Assembly (NCBI GenBank): GCA_023663705.1
Contig: JAMPGY010000021.1
Location: 1-41,446, forward strand
Direction of reading: 5' to 3'
From: Clostridium sp.
Lineage (GTDB): Bacteria > Bacteroidota > Bacteroidia > Bacteroidales > Bacteroidaceae
DNA length: 41,446 nucleotides
Shown: in pieces, positions 2,593 to 34,487 of the stretch
Layout: each line of letters opens with the position of its first letter
Position numbering within the stretch: position 1 is the stretch's first letter
Made by a program: the position numbers and the translations under genes
Notes under the pieces: generated by a model
What the model saw: the letters and a program-made list of their open reading frames with translations, nothing else
The model's database searches: none
Told to the model about the DNA's origin: nothing

Positions 2593-3696
2593 ATGAAAAA
2601 CTGGATGTACGGTGCCCTCGTAATGTTGACACTCGTTTTATCGGGGTGCGATGATATATATAATCATCGTATAAATGTAGTATATGATGGCCACGGCAAG
2701 ACCATCACTTTCTATGATGCTAAATTGAAGCCAATAGGCTCATTTGAAGCGGAGACTGAGATTAAAATTTCAAATGATCAGAATTCCGTATCTGAAGGAT
2801 ATGTTCGACTGGATTCCCCCTTAATAAATACCCTTGTTGAATCCTCGGCTGTAAAAACAAGGACGATAACTGTCAAAAAAATCAGAGATGGAGAATTTGA
2901 GAAAGTACCCTCGTTTGTCGACAAGTTGGAACAGGCCGGTTCTTCATTGTCGGCAAAGGTGTTCGCAATCGTCGACGAAATGCATTATTACAAAACTGAT
3001 TTTAATGGTATTGTGTGGACTATTATAATGATTTTGGCGGCATTTGCCGGATGGGGATTGATAGCATTGGGAACAAATGTAGACAGTTATCTTGTTGCCC
3101 TAATTGGTGTGTTTGCCATGACACTCGCCTATTTCAGTGGATATGTTCTGTATGGCATACAAGAACCTTTTGATGATGGATTAAAATCTGGTGCCGGATG
3201 GTTCGTCGATTTATTTTTTTTCCTTGGAGTTGTTACTGCGGCTATAATAATGTTCTCTACATTCTCTACGACCATGTCGACAATTGTACCTTATACTATG
3301 GATGGGGATTTGTCAATGGCTGGAGCAAACACTATTATTCAATGGCTTCTTCTTTTTGTATATGGTTTGAGTTTATGGTTAATCAAAAGTATAGCAGACT
3401 ATGTATTATGGGCAATGATTATTGTTCAGATAATTTTTAGTCTGTATATTATTGTAATGAGTTTCAAATCGCTGATTGTAATTCCTCCATTACTATATGT
3501 TATTTTATTCCCGTTGTGTTTCATTATGATGGCAATCTCTGTGTTGACTATTGGATGGATGGTGTTTGTTTTGGTATTGATGATTGTTGGATTTGGATCG
3601 CTTTTGTCACAACCGAACACTGGTAATGGTGAAGTTATAGGAATCAAGGTAACAGATGGCATGGGTATCACGCTTTTTGAAAATAGATGGAAATAA
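2593..3696 (+). CDS. unrecognised lipoprotein with multispan membrane domain
   Basis: Not recognised. The 367-aa protein begins with a lipoprotein signal (hydrophobic stretch, then LSGC, with cysteine 19 as the acylation site). A soluble segment of about 115 residues follows, which looks beta-rich and may be small. From about residue 138 to 345 there are roughly seven hydrophobic spans, and a short hydrophilic tail ends the chain. A lipobox followed by many membrane spans is unusual, because lipid-anchored proteins rarely need a polytopic domain. It could sit in the inner membrane with its acylated N-terminus in the periplasm. The gene lies in an A+T-rich islet, 17 bp before the leucine-rich-repeat gene, and is probably co-transcribed with it. 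That it is a real gene is likely; the function is unknown. Confidence 0.75.
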   Translation: MKNWMYGALVMLTLVLSGCDDIYNHRINVVYDGHGKTITFYDAKLKPIGSFEAETEIKISNDQNSVSEGYVRLDSPLINTLVESSAVKTRTITVKKIRDGEFEKVPSFVDKLEQAGSSLSAKVFAIVDEMHYYKTDFNGIVWTIIMILAAFAGWGLIALGTNVDSYLVALIGVFAMTLAYFSGYVLYGIQEPFDDGLKSGAGWFVDLFFFLGVVTAAIIMFSTFSTTMSTIVPYTMDGDLSMAGANTIIQWLLLFVYGLSLWLIKSIADYVLWAMIIVQIIFSLYIIVMSFKSLIVIPPLLYVILFPLCFIMMAISVLTIGWMVFVLVLMIVGFGSLLSQPNTGNGEVIGIKVTDGMGITLFENRWK

Positions 3697-3713
3697 AATA
3701 TTAACCTTTTTAC

Positions 3714-5756
3714 ATGTATGTGGTAAATATGAGATTCATAATTTACGTTACTTTGATGTTATTGGTCAGTTCGGTGACTAAAGCATACGACTTTACTGTT
3801 GATGGATTGTATTTCAACATGACTTACACAGATGGAGAGTGTTCTCTTGTGAGAAACCCGGATGCACCATATTCGGGGAATATAACCATCCCTGAAAGCG
3901 TTACATATGAAGGAACCGTATTTAAGGTTAAATCAATTTCTGACGTAGCGTTCTATGAATGTGAAAATCTTGTATCGGTGGTAATTCCCAATTCTGTTGC
4001 ATCAATAGGTGAACAAGTTTTTTGGGGGTGCATATCTCTTGGAAAAATAACATTGCCTGAGACCATAACACACATTGGAAATCAATGTTTTTATGGTTGT
4101 TCATCACTCCATACGATAACTTTTCCCGGAAGTTTGAAAGATAAAATCGGCACTTATGTACTTTCAAATTGCACTGCAATTAAGTCGGTTATCATTGAAG
4201 ATGGAATTGTCAGGATCCCTGATGGCATGTTTGACAACTGTTCGGCTCTTGAGACTGTCACCATTCCGTCATCGGTTACAAATATCGGGAACGCCTTCTC
4301 CGGCAATACCAATCTTACAGAGATTATACTACCGACAGGGTTGACACATTTAGGAAGAATAGCGGCTGCTACCAAACTGGCGTATATTACATTACCGGAA
4401 ACATTAACCGAATGGGGCGGCATGCCGAATTGTTCCAGCATATATTCTCTCGACTTGCCAATCGGTATTACTGATATTCCCTCTGGGGCATTTGACGGAT
4501 GTTTGTCGTTGTCAGAACTGACAGTCAAAGGAAATATTAAAACGATAGGAAACCATGCGTTTTCAGAGTGTCGCAACCTTAGAGTAGTTCCATCTTTTGA
4601 AGATGTTGAAACCGTTGGCACTGAAGCATTTTATAATTGTACGTCAGTAACAGAACTTAAATTTTCGGATAAGCTAACTAATTTGGGAGATAATGCGACA
4701 TTTGGCAATTGCAAGAGTTTGACATCTATTGAATTAGGCAATGCAGTCAATGTAATCCCCTCTCAGTGCTTTATCAATTGCAGTTCTCTTGTCTCAATTA
4801 CAGTGCCTAAGTCGTGCATGATTTTCGGGATTAAGGCCTTTGAAGGCTGTAGTTCTCTATCGTCTGTCAATATGCCATTAGCCATGACTGAATGGATGCA
4901 GACTGACGAAAACATAGGAAGCGGTGGAAAAACATTTTACGGCTGTACTTCACTTAAGAGCATCACGGTACCTGAAGGTATTCAATATCTCCCATCAAAT
5001 TGTTTTGGTTTGTGTTCAGTCATTGAAACTGCCTATCTGCCATCTACCTTACATAGAATTATGGGATATGCTTTCTATGAATCCGGCATTAATAAGATAA
5101 TCCTGCCCGATGGGCTGGAATATATTGGACAACAGGCATTTGGGAATGTGAATAATCTGCTTGAACTGACTATTCCCGGAAGTGTTAAGGAACTCGACAT
5201 CTCATTCTTGCAGTCAGAGTCGCTAAAGTCACTTTCAATCAGTGATAGTAGCGAAAAGTTAAATTATAATGAAGTGTATTCTTTACCCAATTTGGAAAGC
5301 CTATATATCGGACGAAATATCTCAGTTTCTACCGGCCGGTTCTTTAACGCAATGGAGTCTCCAAATCTTATTTCGTTGACATTAGGTGCATATGTAGAGG
5401 ATGCGACCGGTTTAATTCTTGAGCATAATGATTTTAAAAGTATTATCTCAAAGGCGTTGAATCCCCCGTCCATATGTACTTTTAAGCAAGAAGTATTTCA
5501 AAATGTAAAACCGGAAATTGATGCAACCTGCGAGATTGCCTATCGTGAAGCCGAAAATTGGAAAAAATTCTATAGTTTTGAGTTGAAAGAGGGACTGAAC
5601 GGAGTTGAGGATATTCGCATTGATAAATTTGAAACATTTGAAGTCTATGGAATAGATGGCAAATTGATTAAACATCAGATATCTGATATTTATGGGCTTC
5701 CATCTGGCGTGTATATACTTAAATCAACCGATAAGACAATTAAAATAAAGTTATAA
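3714..5756 (+). CDS. BspA-like leucine-rich-repeat (LRR_5) surface protein with T9SS-like tail
   Basis: Secreted protein of about 680 aa. An N-terminal signal peptide (MRFIIYVTLMLLVSS..., cleavage near TKA-YDF) is followed by many copies of the Treponema pallidum/BspA type leucine-rich repeat, recognisable as F.GC.SL..I.LP..(V/I)..IG..AF. They run from about residue 60 to 590. The C-terminal 50 residues (VYGIDGKLIK, then GLPSGVYILKS and a basic end) resemble a type A sorting domain of the type IX secretion system. Such proteins are usually cell-surface adhesins or ligand binders in gut and oral Bacteroidota. An inner ATG at 3729 gives a more usual signal peptide and may be the true start. The gene is A+T-rich like its upstream neighbour. 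Confidence 0.85.
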   Translation: MYVVNMRFIIYVTLMLLVSSVTKAYDFTVDGLYFNMTYTDGECSLVRNPDAPYSGNITIPESVTYEGTVFKVKSISDVAFYECENLVSVVIPNSVASIGEQVFWGCISLGKITLPETITHIGNQCFYGCSSLHTITFPGSLKDKIGTYVLSNCTAIKSVIIEDGIVRIPDGMFDNCSALETVTIPSSVTNIGNAFSGNTNLTEIILPTGLTHLGRIAAATKLAYITLPETLTEWGGMPNCSSIYSLDLPIGITDIPSGAFDGCLSLSELTVKGNIKTIGNHAFSECRNLRVVPSFEDVETVGTEAFYNCTSVTELKFSDKLTNLGDNATFGNCKSLTSIELGNAVNVIPSQCFINCSSLVSITVPKSCMIFGIKAFEGCSSLSSVNMPLAMTEWMQTDENIGSGGKTFYGCTSLKSITVPEGIQYLPSNCFGLCSVIETAYLPSTLHRIMGYAFYESGINKIILPDGLEYIGQQAFGNVNNLLELTIPGSVKELDISFLQSESLKSLSISDSSEKLNYNEVYSLPNLESLYIGRNISVSTGRFFNAMESPNLISLTLGAYVEDATGLILEHNDFKSIISKALNPPSICTFKQEVFQNVKPEIDATCEIAYREAENWKKFYSFELKEGLNGVEDIRIDKFETFEVYGIDGKLIKHQISDIYGLPSGVYILKSTDKTIKIKL

Positions 5757-5947: not shown

Positions 5948-5979
5948 TTTGATACTTTAGCTGAAACTTTTTAATTTTG
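5948..5979 (+). promoter_or_regulatory. promoter of the HpaII-like gene
   Basis: TTTG at 5948-5951, a 20-nt spacer, then TAATTTTG at 5972-5979: a full match to the Bacteroidota housekeeping promoter. Transcription would start near 5986, leaving a leader of about 78 nt. Confidence 0.75.
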
Positions 5980-6063: not shown

Positions 6064-7149
6064 ATGCTGACAGCAACACGCAGAGAGTGGAATGAATTGT
6101 ACACCTTTTTCTCCATATTGGCCGAGGGGTATCTGACGATGGGAACCGCAGCCGGCGAACCGGGTAAGCAAGTGACGGTGGCCGCCGTCCGCAGGCATGA
6201 ACATGACGGAGACAGGCTCTACAGGATAGAAGAAGACACAGTGCACGTGACGGGAGAGACCATGGACAAGGCGTTTCCACGCGAGGAACTGGCCACCGTT
6301 TCCTCCATGATACTGAAAGTGTTGATGGAGAGTCACGATGACGAACCGCAGGCACCCGAGGCTGTGGAGGCTTTTCTGGATGCCGCGAACATCTACGACA
6401 TGGAGGCTGTGACCGACGACCGCACGGACATGTATGTCTATTTCTATTCGCTGGAAACCGAGCCGGTGGGAATGCGCATCTATTCCCGTCTGTGCGGCAT
6501 GGCACCGTTGCTGGACGGCGGACGCACGGCCAATCTGAAGTTTGAACAGACCGGTGTCCGTTTTTCCCAGCCTGCCGTGAACAAGATAAACCAGACGGAT
6601 AATCCGGAAAATGTGACCGACGTGGCCCGGCGTATCCTTTACATCGAGAGCCAGGGAGGCGTGCTGAAATACAGTGATGTGGCCGATAAGATATTCCGCA
6701 GCAACCTGTCGATGATCGATCTGCATTTTCCCCGTATGCTGGCTGATATGACCCGTCTTCTCCATCTGGACAACGTGACCCGTATTGACGAACTCACCGC
6801 TTTGATAGAGGAACGTAATCCGTTGAAGATAAAAGATGAACTGATTCATAAGCACGGATTCTACCGCCATAAGATAAAGACGTTTCTGTTGGCTTTGGCC
6901 TTCGGCATGCGTCCGGCCAAGATGTACAACGGTACGGATTCCGCCGTGGCTGGTTTCATCATGGTGGACGGACAGGGGCATACACTTTGCTACACTAAGG
7001 CGGACAGCCGCACTTTTGCCGATTATCTGTTCTCGCACACCCGACTGGAGAAGAGTTCGCCCGAGAAGGATAAATACGGTTATCTGGAGCGGGAGAACCG
7101 ACTTTATTATCTGAAACTGAATCTGAAGATCGGATTCGTGCGCAAGTAG
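6064..7149 (+). CDS. orphan HpaII-family restriction endonuclease-like protein, catalytic Lys apparently lost
   Basis: A 361-aa protein, about the length of HpaII (358 aa). By eye it follows the family from end to end: an N-terminal EWNELYTFFSILAEG block, the catalytic region near 117-145, INQTDNPENVTDVARRIL (175-192), NLSMIDLHFPRMLADM (214-229), KIKTFLLALAFGM (270-282), GHTLCY (305-310) and the closing KLNLKIGF (351-358). In the family the nuclease core reads roughly DKSDI...GFSIKSQLG. Here it reads DRTDM...GMRIYSRLCG, so aspartate 122 is kept but the lysine position is tyrosine 140. No DNA methyltransferase lies nearby, although HpaII-type enzymes (target CCGG) are normally paired with one. 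It has its own promoter and a strong terminator. It may be a catalytically dead, domesticated CCGG reader. The alignment is from memory. Confidence 0.7.
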   Translation: MLTATRREWNELYTFFSILAEGYLTMGTAAGEPGKQVTVAAVRRHEHDGDRLYRIEEDTVHVTGETMDKAFPREELATVSSMILKVLMESHDDEPQAPEAVEAFLDAANIYDMEAVTDDRTDMYVYFYSLETEPVGMRIYSRLCGMAPLLDGGRTANLKFEQTGVRFSQPAVNKINQTDNPENVTDVARRILYIESQGGVLKYSDVADKIFRSNLSMIDLHFPRMLADMTRLLHLDNVTRIDELTALIEERNPLKIKDELIHKHGFYRHKIKTFLLALAFGMRPAKMYNGTDSAVAGFIMVDGQGHTLCYTKADSRTFADYLFSHTRLEKSSPEKDKYGYLERENRLYYLKLNLKIGFVRK

Positions 7150-7178
7150 AGATTCTCCTGTGACGGACTGAACAGACG

Positions 7179-7222
7179 AAGCGGCCACGAACCTCCTCAT
7201 TCCGGATGGTTCGTGGCCGCTT
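7179..7222. terminator. bidirectional terminator
   Basis: A perfect 15-bp stem (AAGCGGCCACGAACC at 7179-7193, its complement at 7208-7222) with a 14-nt loop and A/T flanks lies between two convergent genes. It serves the HpaII-like gene (+) and the flavoprotein gene (-). Confidence 0.9.
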
Positions 7223-7246
7223 TGTATATAATCAGGCTACTCCCGC

Positions 7247-20041: not shown

Positions 20042-20057
20042 ATAGTTGAAAAACGAT

Positions 20058-21176
20058 ATGGACAGAAAAAAATATATAGTCGGTGTTTTGTCGTGTATGC
20101 TTTTTGCACAACTGAATGCCCAACAGTTGAAGATAGGGAATTATACCTTCAAAGGTGAAGGTGAGTATCAGGGCGAATTATTCAAGGGCAAGCCCAACGG
20201 AACGGGAATCACTACCTTCCGGAACGGAGACGTCTATGAGGGTGAGTATCTGAAGGGGAAGCGTCAGGGACACGGTGTCTATCGGTTTGCCGACGGAGAA
20301 CGCTACGATGGGGAGTGGTTTCAGGATCAGCAGCACGGATTAGGTACGTTCTACTTTAAAAACAACAATAAATACGTCGGATTGTGGTTTCGCGACTACC
20401 AACAGGGGCAAGGTACCATGTATTATTACAATGGAGACACGTATGTGGGTGAATGGGCGAACGACAAACGTAACGGTGAGGGTGTGTACACCTTTGAAAA
20501 CGGAGCCTATTATAAAGGCACATGGAAGGATGACCAAAAAAACGGTGAAGGAACTTTTGATTGGAACGACGGATCGAAATATGTCGGAGGATGGAAAAAC
20601 AACCAGCGTAGCGGACAGGGTATTTTTACGTATGCCGACGGAGACCGGTATGTGGGTGAATGGCAGAACGATGTGCAGCACGGCAAGGGTATCTACACAT
20701 TTCACAACGGAGATAAATACGAAGGTGATTACCAGGATGGAGAACGTACCGGACAGGGCATTTTCACCTTTGCCAACGGCAATCGCTATGTAGGTTCTTT
20801 CAAGAACGGAGAACAGGACGGACAGGGAATTTTCACTTGGCACAACGGAGCTTCATACAACGGCGGCTGGAAGGCTAACCGGCGCGAGGGACAGGGAAAG
20901 TATGTGTGGAGCAATGGCGATGTTTATGAAGGTGGCTGGAAAAACGGGCAGATGGATGGAGAGGGTATATTGCGACTCACAGACGGCACCAAATTCAAGG
21001 GTATGTTCAAGAACGGTGAGAAGAACGGACGTGGCATCATGGAGGATAAGGACGGGAACCGTTTTGAAGGCAGCTTCAAAAACGATCAGAAACACGGTGA
21101 TTTCGTGGAAAAAGACAAACACGGAAAGGTGATCCAACAGGGAACGTATACGAATGGTTTTTTAAATCGTAAATGA
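20058..21176 (+). CDS. exported MORN-repeat protein
   Basis: A 372-aa protein with an N-terminal signal peptide (MDRKKYIVGVLSCMLFAQLNA) followed by about 14 MORN repeats of 23 residues each, pattern Y.GEW.....G.G...(F/W).NG..., filling the rest of the chain. MORN repeats form elongated beta-hairpin rods that bind lipids or proteins. Exported bacterial versions are poorly characterised. Its place between kdsB and a phosphatase suggests an envelope role, by inference only. The start at 20058 is the ATG that precedes the signal peptide; a TTG lies four codons upstream. Confidence 0.85.
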   Translation: MDRKKYIVGVLSCMLFAQLNAQQLKIGNYTFKGEGEYQGELFKGKPNGTGITTFRNGDVYEGEYLKGKRQGHGVYRFADGERYDGEWFQDQQHGLGTFYFKNNNKYVGLWFRDYQQGQGTMYYYNGDTYVGEWANDKRNGEGVYTFENGAYYKGTWKDDQKNGEGTFDWNDGSKYVGGWKNNQRSGQGIFTYADGDRYVGEWQNDVQHGKGIYTFHNGDKYEGDYQDGERTGQGIFTFANGNRYVGSFKNGEQDGQGIFTWHNGASYNGGWKANRREGQGKYVWSNGDVYEGGWKNGQMDGEGILRLTDGTKFKGMFKNGEKNGRGIMEDKDGNRFEGSFKNDQKHGDFVEKDKHGKVIQQGTYTNGFLNRK

Positions 21177-32978: not shown

Positions 32979-34448
32979 TTAAGCTTCAGATGCAGTCACT
33001 TGTCCTTCGTTGTTTTCCGAATTAGATTTGGAACGTCGACGATTGGCGTGATGATGTGGACGTCTTCTTTTCTTCTTTTCATTGTCAACAGGTTGGATCA
33101 CTTTTGCTTCGGATATAGTCGAAGCTGTTTCTACGGGAGTAGAGGTTGTCTGTTGTTTGCCATTCTGACGCTTGTTTCTGTTTCTGCGCAAACGATTATC
33201 AGTTCCGGTTTTCTTATTACCTTCATTATTTCCTGCACTACCGCGTCTGCGTGAAGATTTTCCTTTTGAACCGGAAGATCTACGTGAGCTGCAGTCCTTC
33301 TGATAAGACGGTGCTTCTCCCAATCCTTCGGGCAGAGGACGCTTTTCGATATCTTTTTCCAAGAAACGCTCGATAGCGGCAAAGCGGATCTGGTCCTTTT
33401 CGCCAACAAAGGTGATTGCTTCACCATCGTGGTTGGCACGGGCTGTGCGTCCGATACGATGCACGTAGTCTTCTGCATCATGAGGTACATCGAAATTGAT
33501 TACCAGCTGAATGTCGTCTATATCAATGCCACGTGCCACAATGTCCGTAGCTACCAGAATGTCAATCTGTTGGGTTTTAAAACGATACATCACGTCATCG
33601 CGTTCCGCCTGCTCTAAATCGGAGTGCATGGCACCGGCGTTGAATCCCGCACGTTGCAATGTGATATTGATGTCCTTTACCTTGAGTTTGGACGAAGCGA
33701 AAATAATAACACGCTCCGGTTTACGATCACGGAATATTTCTTTGACCAACCGAACCTTTTGGGCTTCGTAACATACGTAGGCCGATTGCACAATCTTTTC
33801 AGCCGGTTTGGATACGGCTAATTTCACCTCTGCCGGATTGTGTAATATTGTCTTGGCCAATTCCTGTATTTTGGTCGGCATGGTAGCTGAGAACATTATT
33901 GTTTGACGATTCTCAGGTAAATGCTTCACAATTTGCATGATGTCGTCGCTAAATCCCATGTCCAGCATGCGATCGGCCTCGTCCAGGATAAAAAATGACA
34001 CATGTGAGAGATCCACATTCCCCAGGCTGAGGTGACTTATGAGGCGACCCGGAGTTGCGATGATTACGTCCGCTCCCATTGATAATCCTCGTTTTTCCTG
34101 TTCGTAACGGATACCGTCATTACCTCCGTAAACAGCTACACTGGATACCGGTACATGATAAGAAAATCCCTCCATCGCCTGATCAATCTGTTGGGCTAAT
34201 TCACGGGTGGGAGACATGATGATGCAATTAATGACATTGGAAGGATAGTCGCCATCGCTCAGCTTGCTCAGTATGGGCAGCAGGTAAGCAGCGGTTTTTC
34301 CTGTACCGGTTTGTGCGACTCCTATCAGGTCGCGTCCTTCCAAAATGACTGGAATAGCGTGCTCCTGAATGGGAGTACACTCCGTGAAGTTCATATCGTC
34401 CAGTGCATCAAGAATGGGGTCGCTTAAGTCTAAATCGTAAAAATCCAC
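32979..34448 (-). CDS. DEAD-box RNA helicase (RhlE/DeaD-like)
   Basis: A 489-aa ATP-dependent RNA helicase. Motifs in order: Q motif TPIQEHAIP, Walker A AQTGTGKT, PTRELAQQ, TPGRLISHL, DEAD (FILDEADRMLDMGF), SAT (MFSATM), ARGIDID and HRIGRTAR. The C-terminal 110 residues are a disordered, lysine/arginine-rich tail (SSRRSSGSKGKSSRRRG...), an RNA-binding extension typical of Bacteroidota. Likely roles are ribosome assembly or mRNA decay, especially in the cold. Start: GTG at 34448 (giving a DFYDLDLSDP start like family members); an in-frame TTG at 34478 would add ten residues. It lies 39 bp after lptG and ends at a strong terminator. Confidence 0.93.
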   Translation of the reverse strand: MDFYDLDLSDPILDALDDMNFTECTPIQEHAIPVILEGRDLIGVAQTGTGKTAAYLLPILSKLSDGDYPSNVINCIIMSPTRELAQQIDQAMEGFSYHVPVSSVAVYGGNDGIRYEQEKRGLSMGADVIIATPGRLISHLSLGNVDLSHVSFFILDEADRMLDMGFSDDIMQIVKHLPENRQTIMFSATMPTKIQELAKTILHNPAEVKLAVSKPAEKIVQSAYVCYEAQKVRLVKEIFRDRKPERVIIFASSKLKVKDINITLQRAGFNAGAMHSDLEQAERDDVMYRFKTQQIDILVATDIVARGIDIDDIQLVINFDVPHDAEDYVHRIGRTARANHDGEAITFVGEKDQIRFAAIERFLEKDIEKRPLPEGLGEAPSYQKDCSSRRSSGSKGKSSRRRGSAGNNEGNKKTGTDNRLRRNRNKRQNGKQQTTSTPVETASTISEAKVIQPVDNEKKKRRRPHHHANRRRSKSNSENNEGQVTASEA

Positions 34449-34487
34449 TTTATTTTCTTTACTTATATGATATAACAAAAGATGTAA

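Follow-up and report, generated by a model that had tools for sequence, protein, structure and literature searches.

Type II restriction enzymes are usually viewed as mobile, short-lived genes. Eleven similar HpaII-like restriction enzymes of Bacteroides were described by Ershova 2012 (PMC3488263), where, in the parts of that paper considered here, unlinked methyltransferases were proposed for five of them and none for the remaining six. One of these proteins, BthVORF1149P, is given in the same parts as inactive according to REBASE, and it is suggested there that the proteins may have changed their function. A literature search covering titles and the beginnings of abstracts returned only this study on these proteins.

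In the present work we analysed a gene of this kind in a stretch of DNA of 41,446 nucleotides, referred to as the window. Like the solitary enzymes of Ershova 2012, as far as they are characterised in the parts considered, its product is an HpaII-like protein of the Bacteroidaceae without a linked methyltransferase. Group 37 of that study, with its orthologous groups 6 and 7 (including BthVORF1149P), probably comprises the same proteins as the solitary clade described below, the match being one of description. The initial annotation of the window regarded a catalytically dead, recruited reader of CCGG as new; solitary HpaII-like Bacteroides genes, one of them inactive, had however already been recorded together with the suggestion that their function had changed (PMC3488263). 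The parts of the 2012 paper covered here contain no active-site alignment, phylogeny or rnhB-linked lineage. Relative to the literature found, as far as it was covered, our data add a residue-level explanation, the delineation of a clade, its near-core spread, a set of new invariant residues and a link to rnhB.

Identity of the protein and its neighbourhood

6064 to 7149, + strand: gene for a solitary HpaII-fold protein, an open reading frame of 361 amino acids with a match to PF09561, included in the main clade of our alignment (64 rows)

The host genome is Paraprevotella-like, with Paraprevotella clara, P. xylaniphila and uncultured Paraprevotella as its closest named relatives. The proposed full-length relationship to the HpaII family was confirmed, since residues 5-358 match the RE_HpaII model (PF09561, E 1.1e-122) over positions 1-359 of its 359. 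PADLOC assigns the protein to REase_II (E 9.5e-39), and the automatic annotation of WP_007753179.1 reads "HpaII family restriction endonuclease". Pfam bit scores leave both kinds of HpaII protein unseparated, because those of solitary proteins (410-451) overlap with those of full-length proteins from restriction-modification (R-M) systems (346-479). Searches of PHROGs, NCBIfam and a viral contig collection with the window protein gave no match, while the plasmid and phage collections yielded seven and six matching records, respectively. These 13 records comprise two from Bacteroidaceae, five plasmids from other phyla and six short, unannotated "phage" contigs. NZ_OY725969.1 and OY725990.1, labelled as plasmids of B. 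finegoldii and P. massiliensis, bear a solitary HpaII-like gene; as serC, gcvP and rsmG adjoin it in NZ_OY725969.1, this record may be a mislabelled piece of chromosome. The B. finegoldii member of our locus set (L102) is likewise of the solitary type.

On the structural side, sequence searches for a PDB chain similar to HpaII-like proteins gave nothing significant, and a structure of HpaII was not among the results. Foldseek returned no structural match at E<=0.001; the predicted model has a pLDDT of 70.4, with residues 147-178, 197-217 and 331-361 below 50. MspI and HinP1I, which are monomeric PD-(D/E)xK enzymes, were absent from the matches listed for a modelled R-M relative, and a relationship of these enzymes to the present proteins is tentative.

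None of the 26 other window open reading frames scanned with Pfam, a subset of those in the window, encodes a DNA methyltransferase or Vsr protein, in agreement with the initial annotation. They are mostly metabolic, protease, transport, regulatory and carbohydrate genes, and one has no Pfam match. The methyltransferase-domain protein at 39488-40201 matches small-domain and PrmA-type models, and the weak ResIII match at 32982-34478 (E 2.7e-6) ranks below the DEAD and Helicase_C matches of the same protein, a DEAD-box helicase. A MORN-repeat protein (PF02493, E 6.3e-79) is encoded at 20046-21176 beside a cytidylyltransferase gene. The serine dehydratase gene is separated from the HpaII-like gene by a region of low G+C content (2593-5756, about 36-42% in 1-kb windows) encoding a BspA-type LRR protein and a protein without a Pfam match. 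This region looks like an insertion, since the P. clara and P. xylaniphila loci (L062, L044) have a dehydratase-like gene directly beside the HpaII-like one.

Local gene orders are shared within groups. A serine dehydratase gene is common to the Paraprevotella loci, a YigZ-family gene (Pfam UPF0029 checked in one locus) and a gcvP-like gene occur in genera g3 and g10, and amylase-like and FabD-like genes stand beside the g14 and g2 members. We take the last two names, and gcvP-like except in L102, from sequence starts. Such shared orders favour vertical descent rather than a functional connection. A conserved neighbour was considered as a possible partner, and the loci compared share none across the genera of Bacteroidaceae.

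Two kinds of HpaII protein

An alignment of 106 proteins, including that of the window, was divided into 64 main-clade rows from Bacteroidaceae (among them close relatives), four from the Bacteroidaceae genus g16, eight from a further two Bacteroidales families and 30 of the R-M type, of which 21 came from genomes or plasmids and nine from viral contigs. The labels of g3 as Bacteroides (from gene order, L102 versus L132) and of g14 as Phocaeicola are putative.

The two kinds differ in their surroundings. A C5-methyltransferase resembling those of known R-M loci is encoded in the locus of all 30 R-M genes, at a distance of up to about 50 nt in 29 of them and of 677 nt in the remaining one. The 21 rows taken from genomes and plasmids had received their label partly on account of this very neighbour, so that the viral rows (9/9) are the only independent test. 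Such an enzyme is found at 0/76 solitary loci, some of which have a flank of less than 300 nt on one side before the contig ends. In a tree built without the methyltransferase label, the solitary and the R-M rows (64 and 25 rows) fall on opposite sides of one branch with SH-aLRT 99. This was a quick, unrooted tree with SH-aLRT as its only support measure; 13 near-duplicates were left out of one tree, and the 17 rows left out of another were 13 near-duplicates, three R-M rows on long branches and a truncated row of g16. The position of g16 beside L030 is weak (SH-aLRT 79). The window protein belongs to a separate solitary clade. With HpaII-type Type II enzymes (PF09561) this clade shares homology over the full length, EW-x-E at the N-terminus, the aspartate strand, N157, D219 and an LN close to the C-terminus. 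It differs from them in its loci without a methyltransferase, in a putative catalytic set that is never completely intact, in its near-core chromosomal presence in three genera and in the loss of a C-terminal Q-x-(R/K).

A methyltransferase elsewhere in the genome would make the protein half of a separated R-M system, a reading to which we give very little probability. PF00145, the C5-methyltransferase model, does match somewhere in 29 of the 54 orphan-bearing genomes searched. However, it is absent from the other 25 (13/29 and 12/25), among them the genome of the window (G000; 2.74 Mb, 43 contigs, 96% complete), and the family lysine is gone from all 64 main-clade rows. Half of the 14 single-contig orphan-bearing genomes (7) are without a PF00145 match. 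A divergent or N4-type enzyme would still fit such a system, and for PF01555 the single match in G000 lies under the cut-off. At least four genomes bear an R-M-type HpaII gene in addition, three with an adjacent methyltransferase and one as a partial copy.

Catalytic residues

6094 to 6096, + strand: codon of Glu11, which is E in 30/30 R-M and 61/64 main-clade rows and K, R or H in 8/8 rnhB-linked rows
6427 to 6429, + strand: codon of Asp122, which is D in 30/30 R-M and 59/64 main-clade rows and His in 4/4 rows of genus g16
6481 to 6483, + strand: codon of Tyr140; position of the family lysine, with K in 30/30 R-M and 0/64 main-clade rows

From the PD-(D/E)xK pattern we infer that E11, D122 and K140 form the catalytic set of the family. 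Alignment with the R-M relatives places Y140 at the invariant lysine of FSIKS and D122 at the family aspartate, as had been proposed from the window alone. All three residues are intact in 30/30 R-M rows and in 0/76 solitary rows. Tyrosine as a conserved replacement, on the other hand, did not survive the comparison: across the 64 main-clade rows the site is R in 31, Y in 20, Q in 8, F in 2 and C, L and H in one each, and Tyr140 is one drifted state at a variable site. The aspartate has become N, H, S or A in five of the 64 rows, and D119 is present in 63.

The other lineages are broken at different positions. In g16 (L106-L109) Asp122 is replaced by His and Asp119 by Gly, yet DGGR-x-AN-x-K and the C-terminal LNLK are kept, and a function shared by the clade may consequently not need the old active site. 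The rnhB-linked lineage retains the family Asp in 8/8 rows and the Lys in at least 5/8, this column being alignment-dependent for two rows, but has lost E11. That each lineage broke the catalytic set elsewhere fits a relaxed need for a nuclease, following a methyltransferase loss common to them. As the trees are unrooted, the order of change, with the R-M type first, is one that we infer.

According to the part of PMC4081073 considered here, the PD-(D/E)xK lysine can be replaced by E, Q or N in active restriction enzymes. Because some active enzymes lack the lysine, inactivity of the solitary HpaII-like proteins as nucleases is likely rather than proven. They could still cleave with a re-sited basic residue (R142 or K159) and a new substrate, such as modified or structured DNA or RNA-DNA hybrids, for which no protecting methyltransferase would be needed. 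We regard this as rather unlikely. It would agree with the retention of E11 and D122 in most main-clade rows, with R or K at residue 142 in 59/64 and K159 in 64/64 of them, with the dispensability of the lysine in some PD-(D/E)xK enzymes (PMC4081073, in the part considered) and with the position of a sister lineage directly before rnhB in eight of eight genomes. It is opposed by the replacement of D122 in g16 and in the five main-clade rows, by the loss of E11 in the rnhB-linked rows, and by the conservation of G136 and S141 near residue 140, which speaks against a register shift of two residues.

Recognition elements and newly invariant residues

6514 to 6540, + strand: motif D151-G-G-R154-x-A-N157-x-K159, conserved across the solitary rows
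7117 to 7128, + strand: C-terminal strand LNLK355, with Q in the R-M clade at the position of K355; K in 68/68 main-clade and g16 rows, E in 7/8 and A in 1/8 rnhB-linked rows

In MspI, residues after the lysine and residues at the C-terminus touch the bases. The corresponding parts of the solitary proteins have been rewritten. A C-terminal Q-[IV]-[RK] is found in 30/30 R-M rows, whereas all 68 Bacteroidaceae solitary rows have K-x-(G/S/A) (K355-x-G357 in the window protein). The R-M-invariant T/S148 has become P in 60/64 main-clade rows and the R-M-invariant N151 has become D in 63/64; R-M-invariant W288 is kept in 2/64 and G296 in 8/64. By comparison with MspI, the residues that changed from the R-M clade are likely to be the CCGG readers, and binding of CCGG by the solitary clade appears unlikely.

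The initial annotation had proposed a reader of CCGG or methylated CCGG. A dead HpaII that still binds this site as a regulator, sensor or nucleoid protein would be in keeping with the full-length homology and with the abundance of CCGG in the window, which was borne out (251 sites versus 258 expected from trinucleotides and 145 in dinucleotide shuffles, so that the site is unavoided by either measure). CCGG is also somewhat enriched upstream of main-clade genes, with 0.92 sites per 250 nt versus 0.45 in mononucleotide shuffles. Against it stand the rewritten reading elements, the absence of CCGG from the 250 nt upstream in 34/64 main-clade rows and the 25 of 54 genomes without a C5-methyltransferase match. 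This part of the proposal is probably wrong, and we hold the reading as a whole to be very unlikely. Of other tetranucleotides in the window, CTAG is very rare (2 observed versus 42.5 expected from trinucleotides) and GATC occurs at 0.63 of expectation.

While these positions were lost, others became invariant. R154 is present in 76/76 solitary and 2/30 R-M rows, N157 in 76/76 and 29/30, and K159 in 75/76 (R once) and 0/30. P170, K255 and E342 occur in all 76 solitary rows, as does R or K at 283, and K257 occurs in 74. Ten positions are basic in 64/64 main-clade rows (R51, R154, K159, R224, K255, K257, K270, R283, R327 and K355), with K270 being usual in R-M rows too. Invariants of this kind, extending over all solitary lineages, would be expected if the clade gained one common function before splitting. 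As the model is only fair (pLDDT 70.4), the placement of these residues on a DNA-facing side is presumptive.

The net charge (K+R-D-E) of the main clade, with a median of -6.5 versus -2 in the R-M proteins, offers no advantage for binding nucleic acids. Together with the change of the likely DNA-reading residues and the acidic nature of some conserved positions (D119, 63/64 main-clade rows; E342, 76/76), it would suit a protein-interaction module, in which the HpaII fold serves as a decoy, inhibitor or immunity protein without contacting DNA. Most of the new invariants are nevertheless basic, and no neighbour is conserved across the Bacteroidaceae genera compared; we therefore consider such a module quite unlikely.

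Selection and spread

The low dN/dS ratio that the initial annotation would predict was found. Nei-Gojobori values were 0.028-0.090 in seven pairs with dS below 1, and over 37 pairs (dS 0.1-1.5), which share rows and of which 30 lie at dS >=1, near saturation, the median was 0.098 (range 0.022-0.250). The solitary clade is under purifying selection.

Seventeen of 18 genomes of the window's own genus carry the gene, as do 85 of 95 in genus g3 (two partial) and 37 of 38 in genus g14 (one broken). Across the Bacteroidaceae, 167/399 genomes have some match, R-M types included, which indicates a gene that is near-core in some genera and absent from others. Over the phylum the Pfam model matched 11/395 genomes, and 1/14 controls (Bacteroides ihuae). 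Order-wide 19/294 genomes matched; of the 15 outside Bacteroidaceae, the 13 inspected were all of the R-M type or rnhB-linked.

Broken or partial copies occur in G016 of the window's genus, which has an internal TAG stop, and in G711, G1101 and G681, as would be seen with a silent relic or a pseudogene on its way out. Given the low dN/dS, the near-core presence and the conserved upstream promoter element described below, this is an extremely improbable account of the clade.

Expression signals

5948 to 5979, + strand: Bacteroidota-type promoter TTTG-N20-TAATTTTG, an exact match to TTTGN{18,22}TANNTTTG
7176 to 7225, + strand: terminator-like hairpin between the HpaII-like gene and a convergent metallo-beta-lactamase-fold gene

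The consensus promoter claimed for the gene is present in the form of TTTG at -33 and TAnnTTTG at -7, which we take to be the Bacteroidota-type consensus; a sigma-70 site was not found there in the scan. The -7 element TANNTTTG occurs within 250 nt upstream in 46/64 main-clade rows, compared with 12.5% of mononucleotide shuffles, and only 3/64 rows match the -33 and -7 elements exactly as a pair. As to the strong terminator, the RNA fold of 7150-7235 supports it (-43.3 kcal/mol, z -8.0), whereas a consensus terminator scan did not report it. An Rfam match to mir-486 at 7176-7225 was rejected in favour of the terminator hairpin, its 28 bits comparing with a gathering threshold of 69. Judging from the promoter and the element upstream of its relatives, the window gene is probably expressed, as initially supposed. 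CTTCCGG and CCGGAAG flank the promoter of the window on either side. Autoregulation through a CCGG operator was considered and dropped, CCGG being missing upstream in 34 of the 64 main-clade rows.

The rnhB-linked lineage

Two further Bacteroidales families (f114 and f131) have a solitary HpaII-like gene in 4/5 genomes each. In all eight loci (L110, L111, L112, L114, L115, L147, L151 and L152) the gene lies directly upstream of rnhB, encoding RNase HII, on the same strand and with a gap of up to about 170 nt; RNase HII was confirmed by Pfam for two of them. The rnhB gene was single-copy in 20 genomes searched, and in 12/12 Bacteroidaceae genomes checked the orphan and rnhB are far apart or on other contigs.

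We take this linkage as a lead towards RNA-DNA hybrid metabolism and nothing beyond that, as shared descent could also keep the order. Carried further, the solitary clade would be a housekeeping nucleic-acid family of the Bacteroidales, derived from a restriction enzyme, whose targets are RNA-DNA hybrids, ribonucleotide-containing DNA or replication intermediates, with RNase HII still linked in one lineage, the Bacteroidaceae gene separate from rnhB yet near-core in several genera, and a new R-xx-N-x-K site replacing the nuclease site. In this full form we consider the idea unlikely.

Discussion

Overall, the solitary HpaII-like protein is genuine and conserved, and it is very probably no restriction enzyme. 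The half of the initial annotation that described a dead, recruited HpaII was probably right, given the broken catalytic set, the loci free of a methyltransferase and the low dN/dS. Strong preservation despite the loss of key residues and of the partner suggests a new job.

We favour, with somewhat more confidence than doubt, a retired and re-used HpaII-type restriction enzyme, which would most likely be a non-cleaving nucleic-acid-binding protein with a specificity other than CCGG. An HpaII-type enzyme would have lost its methyltransferase on one Bacteroidales line. Its catalytic set would then have decayed, and the fold together with new charged residues would have come under strong selection. 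Today the gene is near-core in the chromosomes of several Bacteroidaceae genera and has a promoter of its own. The retained HpaII fold may bind duplex nucleic acid via a rebuilt surface, made up of the R154-xx-N157-x-K159 loop, K255-x-K257, R283/K286 and the C-terminal K355. Against this explanation, the R or K at residue 142 might stand in for the lysine, and most main-clade proteins retain E11 and D122.

The bare existence of solitary HpaII-like genes was noted in 2012; they now present a testable case of domestication. It appears that a restriction enzyme underwent a single domestication and that major gut genera have retained it as a near-core gene. Its labelling as a restriction enzyme, by automatic annotation and by PADLOC, would mislead surveys of defence systems and transformation work, as the CCGG barrier that is counted is probably absent. 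The series formed by the R-M proteins, the rnhB-linked lineage, g16 and the main clade offers a natural experiment on a nuclease turning into something else.
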